Assembly: GCF_002286975.1 (NCBI RefSeq)
Contig: NZ_NSKB01000002.1
Location: forward strand, 310,001 to 374,000
Direction of reading: 5' to 3'
Source: Halomonas salipaludis
GTDB lineage: Bacteria > Pseudomonadota > Gammaproteobacteria > Pseudomonadales > Halomonadaceae
Length of the DNA stretch: 64,000 nt
This document shows, one piece after another, positions 9,965 to 63,386 of this stretch (position 1 is its first letter; each line of letters begins with the position of its first letter). The notes beneath the pieces are model-generated. The model was not told the DNA's origin, did not search any database, and worked only from the letters and a program-made list of their open reading frames with translations. A program made the translations under genes and the position numbers.

Positions 9965-10023
9965 TGATTGCACGTCGCCAGGCGACAGTGTCAGCGTCAA
10001 TCCGTAGGGACGAGGAGTCCACC

Positions 10024-40877: not shown

Positions 40878-41783
40878 ATGAACGCCTACCTTGAGCAGCG
40901 TGCGCTGAAAATTTCCACCGCCATGACCCTGCTGGTGGCGAGCCTGGGGGTGGCCTTCGGGCTGCTCTCGGGGTCGCGCTCGATTCTCTTCGACGGGGTC
41001 TTCTCGACCATCGATGCCGCCATGTCGCTGCTGGCGCTGTTCGTCTCGCGGCTGGTAATGAAGGAGTCGAGCCAGCGCTTCCAACTCGGCTACTGGCACT
41101 TCGAGCCGATGGTCGCGGCACTCAACGGCTCGATCCTGCTGCTGCTATGCTTCTATGCCTTTCTCAACGCCATCAGCGGGCTGATGGAGGGCGGTCGCGA
41201 ACTGGCCTTCGATGTGGCAATCGGCTATGCGGTCATCGTCTGCGCGGCCTGCTACGGCATGTTCTTCTTCGAGCGCCGCCTCAATCGCCGCGCGCGCTCG
41301 GAGTTCGTGCGCATCGACACCCAGGGCTGGCTAATGGCGGCGCTGATCACCAGCGCCCTGCTGGTGGCCTTCATTGCCGCACTGCTGATGCAGGATACCG
41401 CCCTGGCGGCGTGGACGCCCTACGTCGATTCGGCGCTGCTGGCGGTATTGACGCTGTGCTTCATGCCCGTGCCGATCGGTATCGTGCGCCGCGCCATGGG
41501 CGAGATCATGATGATCGCCCCACCGGCGCTGGATGCCGAGGTGCATGCGTCGATGGTGCCGGTCATGCGGCGTGACGGACTGCTGGAGTATTCGAGCCAC
41601 GTGGCCAAGAGCGGCCGGGTGCATACCATCGAGATCCATCTGCTGACCACACCGGAGTTTGCCCGCGACGCCGGGGTGGCCCGGCTCGACGAGATCCGCG
41701 AGGAGATCGCCTCGCGGCTGAGCATCCCCGGCGAGCAGCGCTGGTTCACGTTGTCGTTCACCGCCGAGCGGCGCTGGCTATGA
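40878..41783 (+). CDS. Cation diffusion facilitator (CDF) family efflux protein
   Basis: A 301-residue membrane protein with six helices. The CDF metal-site residues are visible as [22 protein letters not shown] (helix II Asp) and [15 protein letters not shown] (helix V Asp). After about residue 215 a cytoplasmic ferredoxin-like domain follows ([35 protein letters not shown]). It exports divalent metals (Zn, Fe, Mn or Co not distinguishable) for protons. It overlaps the hybrid kinase gene by 6 nt tail to tail. Confidence 0.88.
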
Positions 41784-43955
41784 GGTTTCGCTAGCCGGCC
41801 AGCGCCGCTCCAGCGCTGCCAGCGACGGCGCCAGGCAGTGGCGCAGCATCTCCAGCGCAGCTTGGCACGGCGCCTGCTGCGCAGCAGCCTGCTCGAGGCG
41901 CTGTGCCGCCGCTGCCAGCCGTCCCAACCCCAGGCTGCCGGCCTCGCCCTTGATCAGATGAGCCAGCTGCGCGATGTGCGGCAGATCCCTGCTCGCCTGG
42001 GCCACCGCCAGCTCGTCGAGCCGCACCGGCATATTGGACTTCAACAGCGCCAGCAGCGAGCGGCGATCCCTCAGCGGCAGACTCGCCTCCAACTCATGCA
42101 GGGCGTCGTCGTCGAGCCATGCCGATGGCTCGCCATCATCGCCAGCTGGCGCCGCCGTGGCAGGCCTTGGCTCACCGGGCAGGTGGCGCTCGAGCACCGC
42201 CAGTAGCGTCTCGCGGAACAGCGGCTTGGCCAGGTAGCCATCCATGCCGGCCTCGCGGCAGCGCGCCTGATCACCGTCCAGCGCCCCGGCAGTCATCGCC
42301 ACGATGGGCACTTGCCGCGTCCAGCCCTCATGCTGACGTAGCACGCGGGTCACTGCCAGTCCGTCCATGTCAGGCATCTGCACGTCCATGAAGATCAGTG
42401 CAAAGCGCTGCGCCTCACAGCATGCCAGAGCTTCGCGCCCGCTGCCCGCCAGGGTGACCCGGCAGCCCAGCTGCTCGAGCATGGCCACCGCCACCTGCTG
42501 ATTGATTGGGTTGTCCTCGACCAACAGCAGCGATGCCCCGACGCTCGATGTGGTGGCAACTGGCTGGCTCACCGGCGGCGCCTCGCCTTCGGCCGTCGCC
42601 GGCTGCAGCGGCAGTCGTAGCCAGAAACGACTGCCCTGCCCCGGCTGGCTGATAAAGTCGATCTCGCCGCCCATCGCGCCGGCCAGTTGCTTGCAGATCG
42701 CCAGCCCCAGCCCGCTACCGCCGAAGCGTCGTGCAGTGGAGGCGTCGCCCTGGCGGAAGGGCTCGAACAGTGCCTCGCGCTGCGCCTCATCGATGCCGCA
42801 GCCCTGGTCGCTGACGCTGATCTCGAGCTGCTCATCCGCGCAGCGTTGGACGGCCAGCACCACCTCGCCGTCGGCCGAGAACTTAATGGCATTGGAGAGC
42901 AGATTGAGGATCACCTGATTGATGCGTCCGGGGTCGCCGTAGAGGCGTGCCGGCAGCCGTGGGTCGCACTCGCTGCGCAGCATCAGCGACTTGGCGCTGG
43001 CCCGAGGGGCGAACAGCGCCACCGCCCGCGCCACCAGTTCACGCAGATCGTAGTCGGTATGCTCCAGCTCGAGGCGGCCGGCCTCGATCCTGGAGAAGTC
43101 GAGAATGTCGTTGATCAACCCCAGCAGCAGACCGCCGCTCTCATGAATGGTCGCCGCATAGTGCCGCGAGGTGGCATCCAGCGGCCGCTCGCGCAGCAGC
43201 TCGCTCATGCCGATCACGCCATTCAGCGGGGTGCGAATCTCATGGCTGACCGTGGCCAGGAACTCGCTCTTGGCCTGGCTGGCCGCCTCGGCACGCCGTG
43301 CGGCGACCTCGAGCTCGCCGCTGAGCGCTTCGGTAGCACGCCGTGCCGCGGCGCTCTCGCGCGCCTCGCGGAACAGAAACACCACCACCAAGGCGGCGGC
43401 GGCACTCATTGCCACAATCAGCGCGAGCAGGAGGCGGTAGAGACGCTGCAGCTGTTGGCGCTCGCGGGTGGTGGTGTCGGCGAGGTGGGCATTGATCGTC
43501 ACGATCAGTTCCTCACTGTAGCCGCTGAGGGTCGCGAGTCGCGCATCCAGCGCCTCACGGCCGCCGTCCTGGAGCGAGAAGTCGTCGCGGTAGAGCTGCG
43601 TATCGATGGCATCGACCTGATCGATGATCGACGCCATCAGCGACGCGGCTCGTGGAATGGTGTCGAGCAGTTCGGCGAGCTCGCCGCGGCGCAGCAGGTT
43701 AACGCGGCTGTACATCAGTTCGAAGCGCAGGCGCAGGTCGCTGAGATCGTCCTGTGCCGTGGGGCGGGCCAGCTGCGAACGCAGCTGGATCGCCTCACGA
43801 TCGAGCTTGTAGGCCGCCCAGGCGGTATCGCCACCAACGCTCTGCGCCAGGCTGTCCTGACGCCACAGCACCAACCCCGCCACGGCGATGGCGGCAACGA
43901 AGAACAGCAGCGCGGCAAACGCGCCGAGCTTGAGGCGGCCAGGGTAACGCAGCAT
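41778..43955 (-). CDS. Membrane hybrid histidine kinase with receiver and HPt domains (module A output)
   Basis: A 725-residue sensor. TM1 is about 11-31, a helical periplasmic domain about 32-170, TM2 173-195, a short coiled coil, HisKA with His238 ([17 protein letters not shown]), ATPase ([28 protein letters not shown]), receiver with Asp524 ([13 protein letters not shown]) and HPt with His666 ([14 protein letters not shown]). Start 43955 was chosen because the preceding gene ends at 44000 and GAGGG precedes the ATG. The periplasmic domain (W46[31 protein letters not shown]) resembles that of the GGDEF protein at 61809, and both follow a gene for the same small secreted fold. A phosphorelay target is not in the window. 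Confidence 0.9.
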
Positions 43956-43999
43956 CACATCGCCCTCACGTCGCTGGGCGCTGACCTGGCGCCCCGCGC

Positions 44000-44521
44000 T
44001 CAATCGGCATGGATATTGATCACTTGCCATACCGAGCGGAAACGGATCGTCTCGTTGTGCAGCTCGGGATGGTCATCGAACGGGTAGAGTACGAAGATCG
44101 GGCCGTAGTCGCGAATCGGCATCGGCTCGCCGTTGCGCGTCAGCGCCAGAATCACGTCGTAGTCGTGGAAGTTGTCGACCGGGATGTCGGCGGCGAAGTC
44201 GTTCAACGCGCGAACCCGCACCGACTCGCTGTCGGCGCCCACCGCCTCCAGCAGGGCCCGCGCCAGCGGCCCCTCGAAGACATTCGGGCCATCGGTCCAG
44301 GGCGTATGGGTCTCGATCACCCTGGCGGGCAGAGACCTCAACATATCGATATCGAAATGCGCCTCGTCGCCGACGTTAGTATGGGCGATATTGCCCGAGA
44401 CCGTGAGGATCACCTCGCCCTGCGGGCTGGGCAGAGCCCAGGCCGCCAACGGCAGAACGCTCAGCAGCATGGCCAGCGGCAGCCGGCTGGCGGAGAGTGA
44501 CTGGCGGTGACGAATACGCAT
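44000..44521 (-). CDS. Secreted sulfite-oxidase-fold protein without cysteine (module A sensor candidate)
   Basis: A 173-residue periplasmic protein (signal peptide to about WALPS, residue 32) resembling the molybdopterin-binding oxidoreductase domain of the SUOX/YedY family but very short and with no cysteine at all, so the canonical Mo-coordinating Cys is absent. Key blocks are [64 protein letters not shown] and RSVWQV. The protein at 61312-61800 has the same blocks. It is 44 nt upstream of the hybrid kinase in one operon. A role as a ligand-binding partner of the kinase, not an enzyme, is inferred. Confidence 0.8.
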
Positions 44522-44727
44522 GAAGGCCCCTTACATACAAACGTTTTTATGATCGTGCGCTCGACGACACGCCTTGCCGTCATCAGTGCCGTGCAGGCCT
44601 TCCCTTGCACTGCTCGCACTGCTTATTGATCCGTCGCACTATTTTGCCATATTCCCTAGGGTAGAATCTCGTGGTTGCCGCTCCCCATCGGCACACTGGA
44701 CAACACCCAGGCCACAGGAGAGGTCTC

Positions 44728-46224
44728 TTGTCTGAGCAGTTGAAGGATTTTGCCCACACCTTCTGGCATGCCGTGAACAATCTGCTGCCGATCATCGTGG
44801 TGGTGGTGGTGTTCCAGGCGCTGGTGTTGCGCCAATGGCCTGACGGCGGCCTCGGCATGGCGGTTGGCCTGCTGATCGTGGCACTCGGCGTGGCGCTGTT
44901 CCTGCGCGGCCTGGAACTGGGCATCTTTCCGGTCGGCAAGAGCCTCGCCAACCAGTTCGCGCGACGCGGCTCGCTGCCGATTTTGATCGGCTTCGGCTTC
45001 GCCATCGGCTTCTCGGCGGTGATCGCCGAGCCGGCGCTGATCGCCGTTGCCGACCAGGCCGCCGAGATCAGCGCCGGGCGCATCGACGCCCTGACCCTGC
45101 GCCTGATCGTCGCCGCCTCGGTGGGCCTGGTGATGGCCATGGGGATCCTGCGGGTGATCCTCGGCCACCCACTGCACTGGTACATGATCATCGGCTACCT
45201 GACGGTGGTGGCGGTGACCTTCTTCGCCCCGGAGGAGATCGTCGGGCTGGCCTACGACTCCGGCGGCGTGACCACCAATATCGTCACCGTGCCGCTGATC
45301 GCCGCACTGGGCATTGGCCTGGCCACCTCGATTCGCGGCCGCAACCCACTGATCGACGGCTTCGGGCTGGTGGGGCTGGCGGTGATGGTGCCGATGATCA
45401 GCGTCCAGCTTTACGGCATCATCGTCTACGGACAGGCAAGCCCTGCAGGGAATGCCGAGCTGGTGATGAACGGCGACGATGCCCTCGACGCCGGCAATCC
45501 GCTGCTGCAGATGGTGCTCGACCTGTTTAGCATGCTGCGCGATGTGCTGCCGATCCTGCTGGTGATCCTGTTCTTCCAGTACGCGGTGCTCAAACGCGCG
45601 CTCTCCAACCGGCTGCGCGTCGCGGCCGGTTTCGCGTTGGTGATCATCGGTCTCTACGCCTTCGTGGTCGGGCTCAAGCTGGGGTTGTTCCCGATCGGCC
45701 GCAGCATGGCCGAGCAGCTGATCGAGTTCGACAGCTGGCTATGGGTCTACCTGTTCGCCTTCGCCATCGGCTTCGCTACCACCATGGCCGAGCCGGCACT
45801 GATCGCCGTGGGCCAGCAGGCCGAGGAGGCCGCCGCCGGCAAGATCGACGGGCGCGCGATTCGGCTATTGGTGGCGCTGGGCGTGGCAATCGGCATCACC
45901 ATTGGCATTCACCGCATCATCACCGGCGACTCGATCCACCACTACATCATTGCCGGCTATAGCCTGGTGATCGTGCTCACCGCGCTGTCGCCGCGCTATA
46001 TCGTGGCGTTGGCCTTCGATCTCGGTGGGGTGACCACCTCGGAGGTCACGGTGCCGCTGGTCACCGCGCTGGGCATCGGCCTTGCCACGCAAATCGAGGG
46101 TCGCGACGTGCTGATCGATGGCTTCGGCTTGATCGCCTTCGCCTCGATATTTCCCATCGTCACGGTGATGAGTTATGCCATCATCATGGAACGCTTGGTC
46201 AAATGGAGGAACGTCCGATCATGA
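44728..46224 (+). CDS. DUF1538 membrane protein with two internal repeats
   Basis: A 498-residue protein with about 12-14 membrane helices. It contains two homologous halves: AEPALIAVADQAAEISAGRID with SGGVTTNIVTVPLIAALGIGLAT (first half) and AEPALIAVGQQAEEAAAGKID with LGGVTTSEVTVPLVTALGIGLAT (second half). This is the DUF1538 pattern; an inverted or pseudo-symmetric transporter fold is likely. The start is TTG at 44728, supported by AGGAGAGG four bases upstream. The stop overlaps the PII-like gene (ATGA). The transported substrate is unknown. A signalling PII-like protein and a CBS protein follow in the operon, suggesting nucleotide-controlled transport. Confidence 0.85.
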   Translation: MSEQLKDFAHTFWHAVNNLLPIIVVVVVFQALVLRQWPDGGLGMAVGLLIVALGVALFLRGLELGIFPVGKSLANQFARRGSLPILIGFGFAIGFSAVIAEPALIAVADQAAEISAGRIDALTLRLIVAASVGLVMAMGILRVILGHPLHWYMIIGYLTVVAVTFFAPEEIVGLAYDSGGVTTNIVTVPLIAALGIGLATSIRGRNPLIDGFGLVGLAVMVPMISVQLYGIIVYGQASPAGNAELVMNGDDALDAGNPLLQMVLDLFSMLRDVLPILLVILFFQYAVLKRALSNRLRVAAGFALVIIGLYAFVVGLKLGLFPIGRSMAEQLIEFDSWLWVYLFAFAIGFATTMAEPALIAVGQQAEEAAAGKIDGRAIRLLVALGVAIGITIGIHRIITGDSIHHYIIAGYSLVIVLTALSPRYIVALAFDLGGVTTSEVTVPLVTALGIGLATQIEGRDVLIDGFGLIAFASIFPIVTVMSYAIIMERLVKWRNVRS

Positions 46225-46571
46225 AGTTTTCTGCGCTGGTGGCCATCGTGCCCGAGGAGCTGGAGCAGGAGTGCCTCGACGAGGCCAACCATAGCGGCGG
46301 CGGCGGGGTCACCCTGCTGTCGGGCCGCGGGCTGGGCGGCGAGCCCAAGAAGACCTTCTTCGGCCTGACCTTCGAGGGCAGCCAGACAGTGCTGCTGATG
46401 GTCCTCGAGAGGGGCTTGTCGCTGAGCGTGCTCAAGGCGCTGCAGAAGGTGCTCAATCACGACGGCGAGAGCTCGCGGGGAGTGGTCTTCACGCTGCCCA
46501 TCGAGCACCTCGGCGGCCTCGACGTCTCGCAGCTGGAGCGCTTCGAACAGCATCTGCGCGAGTCGCTCTAG
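46221..46571 (+). CDS. PII-like signalling protein
   Basis: A 116-residue protein with the PII fold pattern: beta strand KFSALVAIVPEEL, a glycine-rich T-loop-like segment (NHSGGGGVTLLSGRGLGGEPKKTFFG), LMVLERGLSLSVLKALQKVL and the C-terminal strand RGVVFTLPIEHLGGL. It lacks the Tyr51 uridylylation site of GlnB as far as can be read. It is coupled to the DUF1538 gene by an ATGA overlap, so it probably binds the membrane protein and gates it in response to a nucleotide. GGAGG lies ten bases before the ATG. Confidence 0.8.
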   Translation: MKFSALVAIVPEELEQECLDEANHSGGGGVTLLSGRGLGGEPKKTFFGLTFEGSQTVLLMVLERGLSLSVLKALQKVLNHDGESSRGVVFTLPIEHLGGLDVSQLERFEQHLRESL

Positions 46572-61171: not shown

Positions 61172-61311
61172 CCTTCATCCTCTGGTGTTTGAGCGGTACT
61201 CAATTTAGGGTGCTCGCACAAGGTGCTACAGCTTAAGCTAGGTCCCGCCGATATTACTGCCAGAACAATGCCCAGAGGAAATCGATAATGAACCTGAAGG
61301 AGAGAACTGGC

Positions 61312-61800
61312 ATGCACCGGGTCATCACTAGCCTCTTGCTGACTGGCCTGATCCTGGCCTTTGGCGCCCAGGCAGCGCCACCCCGCGATATGCCGATTCT
61401 TACCATTCACCCTGGCGCAGGAGGCACTCCGCATGTACTCAGTGTGGCCGACCTGGAAGCATACCCACGGCGCAGTGTGACAGGCCTGATTCCCGATGTC
61501 GGCGATCACGAGGCCGAATGGACAGGAGTCTCCCTGGCCTCGCTGCTCCAGGGGTTGGGCGAGCCCTGGCCTGCTCGAATCACCGCCAGCGCCATGGACA
61601 GCTATCGCGAAACCATCCCCGGTAGCGACCTCGAGCACTACGATCCGATCATCGCCTATCAGCGCAATGGCGAGTACCTCAGCATCAGCCAGCGTGGCCC
61701 GCTGGTCATCATGTACCCCTATGGCGAGCATCCTGAACTACTGACCCGCGTTTTTTTCAGCCGCACGGTGTGGCAACTCGATGAACTGAGGCTAGAGTGA
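61312..61800 (+). CDS. Secreted sulfite-oxidase-fold protein without cysteine (module B sensor candidate)
   Basis: A 162-residue paralogue of the protein at 44000-44521. It has a signal peptide (MHRVITSLLLTGLILAFGAQA) and the same blocks: EWTGVSLASLLQGLGEPWP, DSYRETIPGSDLEHYDPIIAYQRNGEYLSISQRGPLVIMYPYGEHPEL and RTVWQL. It too has no cysteine, so it cannot bind Mo through the usual ligand. The start at 61312 has AGGAG upstream; the in-frame ATG at 61288 would bury the signal. The stop is 8 nt before the GGDEF gene, so the two are coupled. Confidence 0.8.
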   Translation: MHRVITSLLLTGLILAFGAQAAPPRDMPILTIHPGAGGTPHVLSVADLEAYPRRSVTGLIPDVGDHEAEWTGVSLASLLQGLGEPWPARITASAMDSYRETIPGSDLEHYDPIIAYQRNGEYLSISQRGPLVIMYPYGEHPELLTRVFFSRTVWQLDELRLE

Positions 61801-61808
61801 GGCCACTC

Positions 61809-63386
61809 ATGCAGCCCAGCCGCCCCCGTCACCATAAGCTGGCCATGCTGGCGCTTCTATCTACGCTAGCGACAATGATCTTGGCCACGGCCTATAGCCT
61901 GGTCACCGTCAATGCCAAGTATGCGAAGTACTCTGCTCCGGGGATGCATACCGAAGTGTGGCAGAGCTATCAGCTGCACTCGGAAACACGCCGATTGAGC
62001 GACACCGCCAACCGCGTGCTGGCTGGCGAGGCGACGGCGCCTGAACTGATCCAGCGCCTGGGGGTAGCGAAGAGTCAACTCGCCCCGCTGCAGCATACCC
62101 GGGTCTTCGACTATCTACCCGAGGCGCATGCTGAACTACCCGAAACCCTCGAGCACCTCGACTCGCTGCTTCAAGCCTGGTCGTCACGCCTCTCGTGGCA
62201 GGACACCTCCCAGGCCATCCAGGTCGCCGACGAGATGGCAGATCAGCTACCGACCATGCTGGGCCCCACCCACGACATCATCGTCAGTGCCAATATTGCC
62301 GTGGCCAGCCGTCTCGATGCCGAACGCCACGACCTCAAGCGCACCTTCCAGCGACTGGTATGGGTGCTGCTGCTCTTGGGTACAGGCAGCCTGCTGCTGG
62401 CGGCCAAGCTATTCAGAGACTACCGCCATACGCTGCACCTGACACGCGAGCTCGGCACCCTCAACCAGTCGCTGGAAGAGCGTGTCGCCGAGCGTACCCG
62501 GCGCCTCGAGGAGCGCAAGGCACTGCTCGGCATCATCCTCGACTCGAGCCCGAGCGACGTGGCCCTGCTCGGTGCCAACGACCAGCACGCCTACTATATC
62601 AGCGACACCCTTCGGCAACGCGCCAGCACCAATGACAGTGGCTTTCTCGAGTCGCTATTCGTCGATTCGCACCAGTACACACTCTTCATGCAGCGGCTGG
62701 CCACGAGCCAGGCGTTCGACAACTGGGAGGCACGCCTCGATCCCAGGTCGCCATACTGGGCGCTGCTCTCGGTACGCCACCTCGAGATCGACTCGCATCG
62801 TGCCTGGCTGATCTGGAGCCTGGACATCAGCGAGCGCAAGCGCATGGAGCATGAGCTCAAACAACTGGCGACCACCGACTCGCTGACCGGTCTCGCCAAC
62901 CGGCGCACCTTCCTGCGCCAGGCTATCAAGCAGCTGAGACGCTCGCTACGCGAAGCCAACCCCTGTTCGGTACTGGTGATCGACATCGATAATTTCAAAC
63001 GCATCAACGACCAGCACGGCCACCAGGTGGGCGATACGGTGTTACAAGCGGTCGCCCGGCGGCTCGACAAGCACCTGCATCCACGGGGCCCGCTGGGCCG
63101 ACTCGGTGGCGAGGAGTTTGCAGCGCTGGTCAAGGACGCAGATGGCCGCGCTGCGTGGGAGATCGCCGAGGCGTTGCGCGACGATGTCGAATGCCTGACC
63201 CTGCAGGGCGAGGATGGACGGGCCATACCGGTGACCATCAGCATTGGCATCGCCACCCACAGCGGGCAGGACACCAGCCCCCAACACCTGCTGGTAGAAG
63301 CCGACAAGGCGCTGTACCTGGCCAAATCAAGGGGCCGTAACCGCTGCGAAACGCTCGATCAGTCGAGTCCGGGGCCCTCGTGCTGA
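61809..63386 (+). CDS. Membrane PAS-GGDEF diguanylate cyclase (module B output)
   Basis: A 525-residue protein. TM1 is about 12-34, a helical periplasmic domain about 35-182, TM2 about 183-200, a coiled coil 205-238, a PAS-like domain about 240-345 and GGDEF 355-525 with the active-site variant GGEEF (433-437). No RxxD inhibitory site precedes it (the five-residue-upstream position reads RGPL), so product inhibition is unlikely. The periplasmic segment (W51QSYQLHSETRRLSD, LAPLQHTRVFDYLPE) resembles that of the hybrid kinase at 41778. The start ATG has GAGG six bases upstream; a GTG at 61797 is possible. It makes cyclic di-GMP in response to its coupled secreted partner. Confidence 0.9.
   Translation: MQPSRPRHHKLAMLALLSTLATMILATAYSLVTVNAKYAKYSAPGMHTEVWQSYQLHSETRRLSDTANRVLAGEATAPELIQRLGVAKSQLAPLQHTRVFDYLPEAHAELPETLEHLDSLLQAWSSRLSWQDTSQAIQVADEMADQLPTMLGPTHDIIVSANIAVASRLDAERHDLKRTFQRLVWVLLLLGTGSLLLAAKLFRDYRHTLHLTRELGTLNQSLEERVAERTRRLEERKALLGIILDSSPSDVALLGANDQHAYYISDTLRQRASTNDSGFLESLFVDSHQYTLFMQRLATSQAFDNWEARLDPRSPYWALLSVRHLEIDSHRAWLIWSLDISERKRMEHELKQLATTDSLTGLANRRTFLRQAIKQLRRSLREANPCSVLVIDIDNFKRINDQHGHQVGDTVLQAVARRLDKHLHPRGPLGRLGGEEFAALVKDADGRAAWEIAEALRDDVECLTLQGEDGRAIPVTISIGIATHSGQDTSPQHLLVEADKALYLAKSRGRNRCETLDQSSPGPSC

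Follow-up and report, generated by a model that had tools for sequence, protein, structure and literature searches.

PruR-type receptor modules with a hybrid kinase and a diguanylate cyclase as partners in Halomonas salipaludis

Two gene pairs of one design

The stretch of Halomonas salipaludis DNA analyzed here, 64,000 nucleotides of contig NZ_NSKB01000002.1 (positions 310,001 to 374,000; hereafter the window, which sets the numbering), carries two gene pairs in which a small, secreted-looking protein resembling the pterin-binding protein PruR is encoded directly upstream of a membrane signaling protein. The partner is a hybrid histidine kinase in the first pair (module A) and a diguanylate cyclase in the second (module B). 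An earlier reading of the same letters (the original prediction) had picked out both pairs as parallel sensor modules.

Module A lies on the reverse strand. Its first gene, pruR-A (44000..44521), encodes a 173-residue protein with a hydrophobic N-terminus that looks signal-like by eye and no cysteine anywhere in its length, and the profile search suggested by the original prediction matches it to Pfam Oxidored_molyb at 25.9 bits, above the cut-off of 24. The expectation of a small, cysteine-free, secreted-looking protein of the sulfite oxidase (SUOX) type is thereby borne out. The partner gene (41778..43955, same strand) encodes a DTB-type hybrid histidine kinase of 725 residues from a likely ATG at 43955, which lies 44 nucleotides past the pruR-A stop, just as had been proposed; the listed open reading frame (ORF), of 750 residues and running to 44030, is a mechanical extension into pruR-A. 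Pfam finds HisKA, HATPase_c, Response_reg and Hpt domains in the kinase and detects no PAS domain, and its best NCBIfam model is TorS, which covers residues 242-741 of the 750-residue ORF and scores below the model's cut-off. The sequence WAAYKLDRE, of the pattern W-x7-E, occupies residues 46-54.

Module B sits 17 kb from module A on the opposite strand. Its small gene, pruR-B (61288..61800, forward), encodes 170 residues, again with a hydrophobic, signal-like N-terminus by eye and no cysteine, and matches Oxidored_molyb at 31.3 bits, likewise above cut-off; the start given in the original prediction, 61312, is the second ATG and an alternative start. The gene overlaps by 4 nucleotides with that of a 529-residue membrane diguanylate cyclase (61797..63386, forward), whose GGDEF domain (149.5 bits, Pfam) retains an intact GGEEF motif. 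No EAL domain is matched by Pfam in this protein even at E 1, and no RxxD inhibitory site is seen by eye directly before GGEEF. A second W-x7-E stretch, WQSYQLHSE, lies at residues 55-63. At a locus of a near relative (L117, genome G004), the PruR-B match is split over two overlapping frames beside an open cyclase frame, possibly through a frame change in pruR-B.

The small proteins are homologues of PruR

PruR-A and PruR-B share 29% identity over 171 residues (E 1e-17), and the paralogy claimed in the original prediction holds. The best Protein Data Bank (PDB) matches of PruR-A are 7RKB (E 2.1e-39) and 7KOS (E 4.9e-38), and that of PruR-B is 7KOS (E 5.4e-18). The only strong PDB matches of either protein are 7RKB, 7KOS/7KOU, 7KP2 and 7KOM, chains titled 'Pterin Binding Protein', 'Putative Pterin Binding Protein' or 'Oxidored_molyb domain-containing protein'. 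According to a 2026 review (PMC13259868), 7KOS is the PruR of Agrobacterium tumefaciens and 7KP2 that of Vibrio cholerae. The same text describes PruR as a periplasmic protein of about 170 residues with the SUOX fold, devoid of the molybdenum-ligating cysteine and having a pterin site that includes Trp160 and Tyr104. It also mentions a Halomonas elongata sequence with Phe at Tyr104, and suggests that a change at Asn102 may mark pterin specificity, with the in vivo ligand unclear (PMC13259868).

The corresponding columns were mapped through the 7KOS segment, where the spacing of 56 between Tyr and Trp agrees with this numbering. After removal of rows with identical C-terminal 130 residues, 163 PruR rows were reduced to 138 including the reference, and the 137 others comprise 114 of kinase type, 6 labeled GGDEF and 17 of a divergent fourth type taken up below; for four of the rows, a partner label of 'none' or 'peri' was replaced by kinase here and in the tree. 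The Trp160 column holds Trp in all 137, PruR-A and PruR-B included. At the Tyr104 column every row has Tyr or Phe (137/137), PruR-A having Phe and PruR-B Tyr. At the Asn102 column, Asn is found in 109 rows, Asp in 27 and Arg in 1, and here PruR-A has Asn and PruR-B has Asp. The last 145 residues contain no cysteine in 123 of the 137 rows and one or two in the remaining 14 (12 of the 114 kinase-type, 1 of the 6 GGDEF-labeled and 1 of the 17 fourth-type rows). With their length, SUOX motifs, absence of cysteine, Trp160 and Tyr or Phe at position 104, both small proteins are, by sequence, PruR homologues.

A homologous periplasmic domain in both partners

The partners resemble each other outside the membrane as well. 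The periplasmic regions of the module A kinase and the module B cyclase match directly by BLASTP (E 6e-5), and an alignment of 45 kinase-partner rows compared with one of 5 cyclase-partner rows by hhalign gives 97.6% with E 2.7e-12 over 201 columns. The module B cyclase as a single sequence still reaches 96.0% (E 4e-9) against the kinase periplasmic family. The controls TorS and RstB score 0.6% and 0.9%. Because the profile match is strong and both controls stay below 1%, the likeness noticed in the original prediction reflects homology rather than chance. Trp46 is invariant among the 45 aligned kinase partners, and the Glu of W-x7-E is Asp in many related kinases. In the review, W-x7-E is the signature of DcpA- and DTB-type partners (PMC13259868); both H. 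salipaludis partners carry it, as judged by the review's motif.

Modeled with AlphaFold (pLDDT 92 for the kinase and 82 for the cyclase, the latter built on 5 sequences), both regions are predicted as four-helix periplasmic domains in which the helix order, compared without superposition, is alike. A long helix or helix pair continuing from the first transmembrane helix and bearing W-x7-E is followed by two bundle helices, with a short element between them in both models, and by a long last helix that runs into the second transmembrane helix. Unrelated periplasmic folds, which would have spoken against the original prediction, were thus found neither by profile nor in the models. Searches beyond the family return little: the kinase periplasmic profile yields 30 matches to E 1 among PDB sequences, the best at 0.0058 and mostly unrelated helical or coiled-coil proteins, and Foldseek with either model gives weak helical matches only, none at E 0.001 or better.

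Adjacency and the pairing of receptor with output

The original prediction had staked its case on the two genes being neighbors in other genomes, and they are. Among named genomes, the best 80 of 85 loci found with PruR-A, some of them from one genome or from metagenome bins, all encode a kinase core downstream on the same strand (80/80), the nearest named relatives belonging to Halomonas and Franzmannia. These counts rest on mechanical ORFs, and as the loci were found with a kinase-type PruR they say nothing on the frequency of the cyclase type. The partners were first labeled as 77 kinases, 2 none and 1 periplasmic part only, and relabeling gave 76, 3 and 1 since the second PruR copy was picked at locus L084. 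The kinase reading frame is split in at least 3 of the 80 loci (L080, L086 and L096), and short kinase frames occur elsewhere, for example in L036. The L084 locus, from Halomonas cupida, carries a tandem PruR-kinase-PruR-kinase array (L084:4890-10427). A PruR-kinase pair is also present on a contig titled as a Verrucomicrobia metagenome-assembled genome (L111), which may reflect either a binning error or transfer outside Proteobacteria.

A sample of 299 genomes drawn across the phylum contains PruR matches at E 1e-12 in 34 genomes (45 matches). Thirty of these matches were followed up, including the window's own locus, and each of the 30 has an adjacent partner, 19 of them kinases and 11 GGDEF proteins (28 labeled by script and 2 by eye). 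W-x7-[E/D/Q] occurs in 28 of the 30 partners; it was scored anywhere in the first 140 residues, and a few occurrences may be due to chance. Nearer to H. salipaludis, PruR-A-like proteins are encoded in 30 of 58 relatives' genomes (E 1e-5), and close PruR-B matches (E <1e-40), all five of which have a GGDEF partner, in 5 of 97; the profile used to label PruR proteins was seeded with a fourth-type protein.

On a tree of the 138 PruR rows, the output label changes 4 times, compared with a mean of 23.2 for shuffled labels, and none of 200 shuffles falls as low. The tree is a quick FastTree build with warnings on long branches and near-copies, in which the reference row counts as a group; 3 changes are left without that row, and one fourth-type row labeled plain GGDEF adds a change. 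The small number of changes indicates that receptor and type of output go hand in hand across this halomonad-dominated sample.

Other genes recur near the pairs. In 24 of the 80 named-genome loci (within L034-L113), pruR is flanked on its upstream side by a separate, divergent ORF with a receiver domain, and the one of these 24 that was checked (L080:4106-4816) is an OmpR-type regulator by Pfam. This ORF is a candidate partner for that kinase branch. A search of the H. salipaludis genome with the L080 regulator finds no close relative, the best match having only 34% identity. A LacI-type gene near the pruR-kinase pair in 17 of the 80 loci is read as synteny. In the window, a DUF1538 gene and then a P-II-like gene just under its Pfam cut-off (44671-46571) are divergent from module A; a functional tie to the module was considered and rejected, these genes being present in 3 of the 80 loci, in the nearest relatives only. 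A cation-efflux gene near module A is likewise kept in 3 of the 80.

Relation to known systems

The original prediction knew of no named system with this layout, a claim that has to be withdrawn. In the 2026 review (PMC13259868), which cites Greenwich et al. 2024 and Feirer et al. 2015 for PruR systems, PruR-DcpA (cyclic di-GMP, c-di-GMP) and PruR-DTB (kinase) are described as two-gene operons, and up to four PruR systems are noted in single taxa. As layout, both outputs and multiplicity are already in print, modules A and B belong to the known PruR system and join a published pathway; their layout is well conserved but not new.

Module A closely matches PruR-DTB as the review presents it, with a secreted, cysteine-less PruR of about 170 residues and SUOX fold, a two-gene arrangement with the partner directly downstream, a W-x7-E periplasmic domain and a two-component kinase cytoplasmic part with a TorS-like core and a receiver domain, in a domain set noted there as modular (PMC13259868). 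Nothing essential differs: module A adds Hpt, has no detected PAS domain and carries Phe in place of Tyr104. Module B resembles A. tumefaciens PruR-DcpA in that PruR is followed by a membrane c-di-GMP enzyme with a W-x7-E periplasmic domain. DcpA, however, is a dual GGDEF-EAL enzyme, whereas the module B cyclase has GGDEF only, and Asn102 is replaced by Asp in PruR-B. Because the EAL half is missing, this protein is better described as a PruR-linked diguanylate cyclase than as a DcpA orthologue.

Module A also invites comparison with TorT-TorS, in which a periplasmic protein tunes a hybrid kinase. TorT is not known to have the SUOX fold. In its cytoplasmic core, the kinase of module A best matches the TorS model, at a score below the cut-off, but the periplasmic regions are unrelated (hhalign 0.6%), and homology of the sensor part to TorS was rejected on that ground, the likeness being confined to the cytoplasmic core. 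The QseG-QseE complex and NarQ are among the weak Foldseek matches, none at E 0.001, and share only the likeness of a four-helix bundle.

Further PruR-like modules and a pterin reductase

A search of the H. salipaludis genome itself finds four PruR-like proteins. The third belongs to a set at L114:1949-5390 in which pruR is followed by a kinase that matches PAS weakly and by a LuxR-type response regulator; as read from its genes, the set is a PruR-linked two-component system with a predicted DNA-binding output attached. The L114 kinase has the Trp of W-x7-E but gave no exact match to the pattern. The fourth module (L115:5446-7165) comprises a divergent PruR-like protein followed by a GGDEF protein without W-x7-E.

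This fourth PruR-like protein falls under the Pfam cut-off, and its match to a PruR structure as a single sequence is no better than E 0.16; its family aligns with PruR at 99.3% by hhalign and with PruR structures at E about 1e-6, two tests that are independent of the profile used for labeling. The periplasmic family of the accompanying cyclases reaches 93.9% against the kinase sensor family, chiefly in the second half, 31.6% when the region is compared as a single sequence, and 7.4% against the five-row module B cyclase family. A search of 97 genomes finds the fourth type in 18, including 5 of 5 in the genus (it gave 19 matches, one of them the B-type protein itself), and a GGDEF partner is present at 17 of the 18 loci. 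At L172, an opposite-strand ORF resembling, by eye, an IS200/IS605-type OrfB transposase (L172:2039-3178) stands in place of the cyclase after the fourth-type pruR.

Across the four arrangements, the Asn102 and Tyr104 columns read Asn/Phe, Asn/Tyr, Asp/Tyr and Asp/Tyr, and the differences suggest that the paralogues may not all respond to the same pterin or to the same pterin redox state. Also encoded in the genome is a FolM-type dihydromonapterin reductase, which matches an NCBIfam equivalog model at 335 bits against a cut-off of 249 and in which the motifs TGGAQRLG and YAATK were read by eye. In the accessible part of the review, neither a PruR-kinase-LuxR-type set, nor a divergent receiver gene, nor a divergent PruR-like/cyclase pair is named, and no function of PruR systems in Halomonadaceae is reported (PMC13259868).

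A model of pterin sensing and its alternatives

Taken as a whole, these observations make it very probable that each pair is a PruR-type pterin-sensing module that controls its membrane partner. In the following scheme, what is bound, whether and where PruR docks, and which way control runs are modeled mostly on work in A. tumefaciens. The small protein would be exported and, with a sulfite oxidase core fold lacking the molybdenum-ligating cysteine, would bind a small reduced pterin in the periplasm. Homologues make (tetrahydro)monapterin a plausible ligand of PruR-A and PruR-B, and the likeliest would be tetrahydromonapterin made with the genome's FolM-type reductase. Once loaded with pterin, PruR may then bind its neighbor-encoded partner at the four-helix periplasmic domain, perhaps close to where helix 1 carries W-x7-E, and alter the signal that the second membrane helix conveys. 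For module A this would shift the balance of autokinase and phosphatase activity in a hybrid kinase with a complete predicted phosphorelay (His, Asp, Hpt), whose final acceptor would have to be a response regulator encoded elsewhere. For module B it would change diguanylate cyclase activity and hence c-di-GMP, with probable effects on surface attachment. The original prediction of a receptor that controls its partner, with one sensing design coupled to two outputs, is consistent with the published mechanism; as to binding and regulation by the H. salipaludis proteins themselves, it goes no further than their homologues allow.

Several observations weigh against this model. In A. tumefaciens, loaded PruR favors the phosphodiesterase activity of DcpA, according to the review (PMC13259868). 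As the module B cyclase has no EAL domain, this published switch cannot apply as such, and control must act on the cyclase activity itself. No response regulator gene adjoins module A. Of 10 cyclase-partner rows, a HMMER profile built from kinase partners only matched 6, at E 2e-6 to 7e-4 with the search space set at 10,000; the rows left unmatched were two of the B type and two of the fourth type. Finally, given Phe in PruR-A and Asp in PruR-B at pterin-site columns, ligand preference may differ from that in A. tumefaciens.

The last point bears on the alternative that survives best, though it is still rather doubtful, namely that the small proteins are receptors of the PruR fold whose physiological ligand is either no pterin or a compound that the cell does not produce. 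This could be a pterin-like molecule that is exogenous or of a different kind, and specificity could be split among the paralogues. Besides Phe at Tyr104 in module A, Asp at Asn102 in both module B and the fourth paralogue would fit such a split, as would the review's remarks on Asn102 and on the unclear ligand and its mention of V. cholerae PruR pairs without PruA (PMC13259868). The retention of Trp160 in every row surveyed and the dihydromonapterin reductase encoded in the genome speak for a pterin made by the cell.

It is unlikely that the pairs are merely co-inherited while PruR acts on a partner other than its neighbor. Four PruR-like proteins in one genome would permit such cross-pairing, but PruR clade predicts output type, adjacency is found at every locus of two samples, and the partners' periplasmic domains are homologous. 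Least probable by far is that the small proteins are reduced molybdopterin oxidoreductases whose by-products the partners sense as a redox signal, a view that could draw on the Oxidored_molyb matches and the cysteines of 14 surveyed rows but that is opposed by the absence of cysteine from both window proteins, the deposition of the closest solved structures as pterin-binding proteins and a truncated site likely unable to hold the molybdenum cofactor, as stated in the review (PMC13259868).

Implications for halomonad signaling

What had looked like a new system falls away, and both modules take their place in a published pathway. The wider gene content allows a more tentative suggestion, that PruR-type receptors serve as a modular front end occurring in four arrangements in one cell: with an orphan hybrid kinase, with a kinase and a LuxR-type regulator, with a W-x7-E cyclase, and, as a divergent PruR-like protein, with a cyclase lacking W-x7-E. 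The paralogues may then feed transcription and c-di-GMP separately, and the fourth type might represent an undescribed branch. The regulator genes beside some pruR-kinase pairs offer clues to how the kinase branch might act on transcription. With four PruR-like modules that differ in site residues and outputs, together with FolM, H. salipaludis offers a practical case in which to ask whether paralogous PruRs read different pterins.

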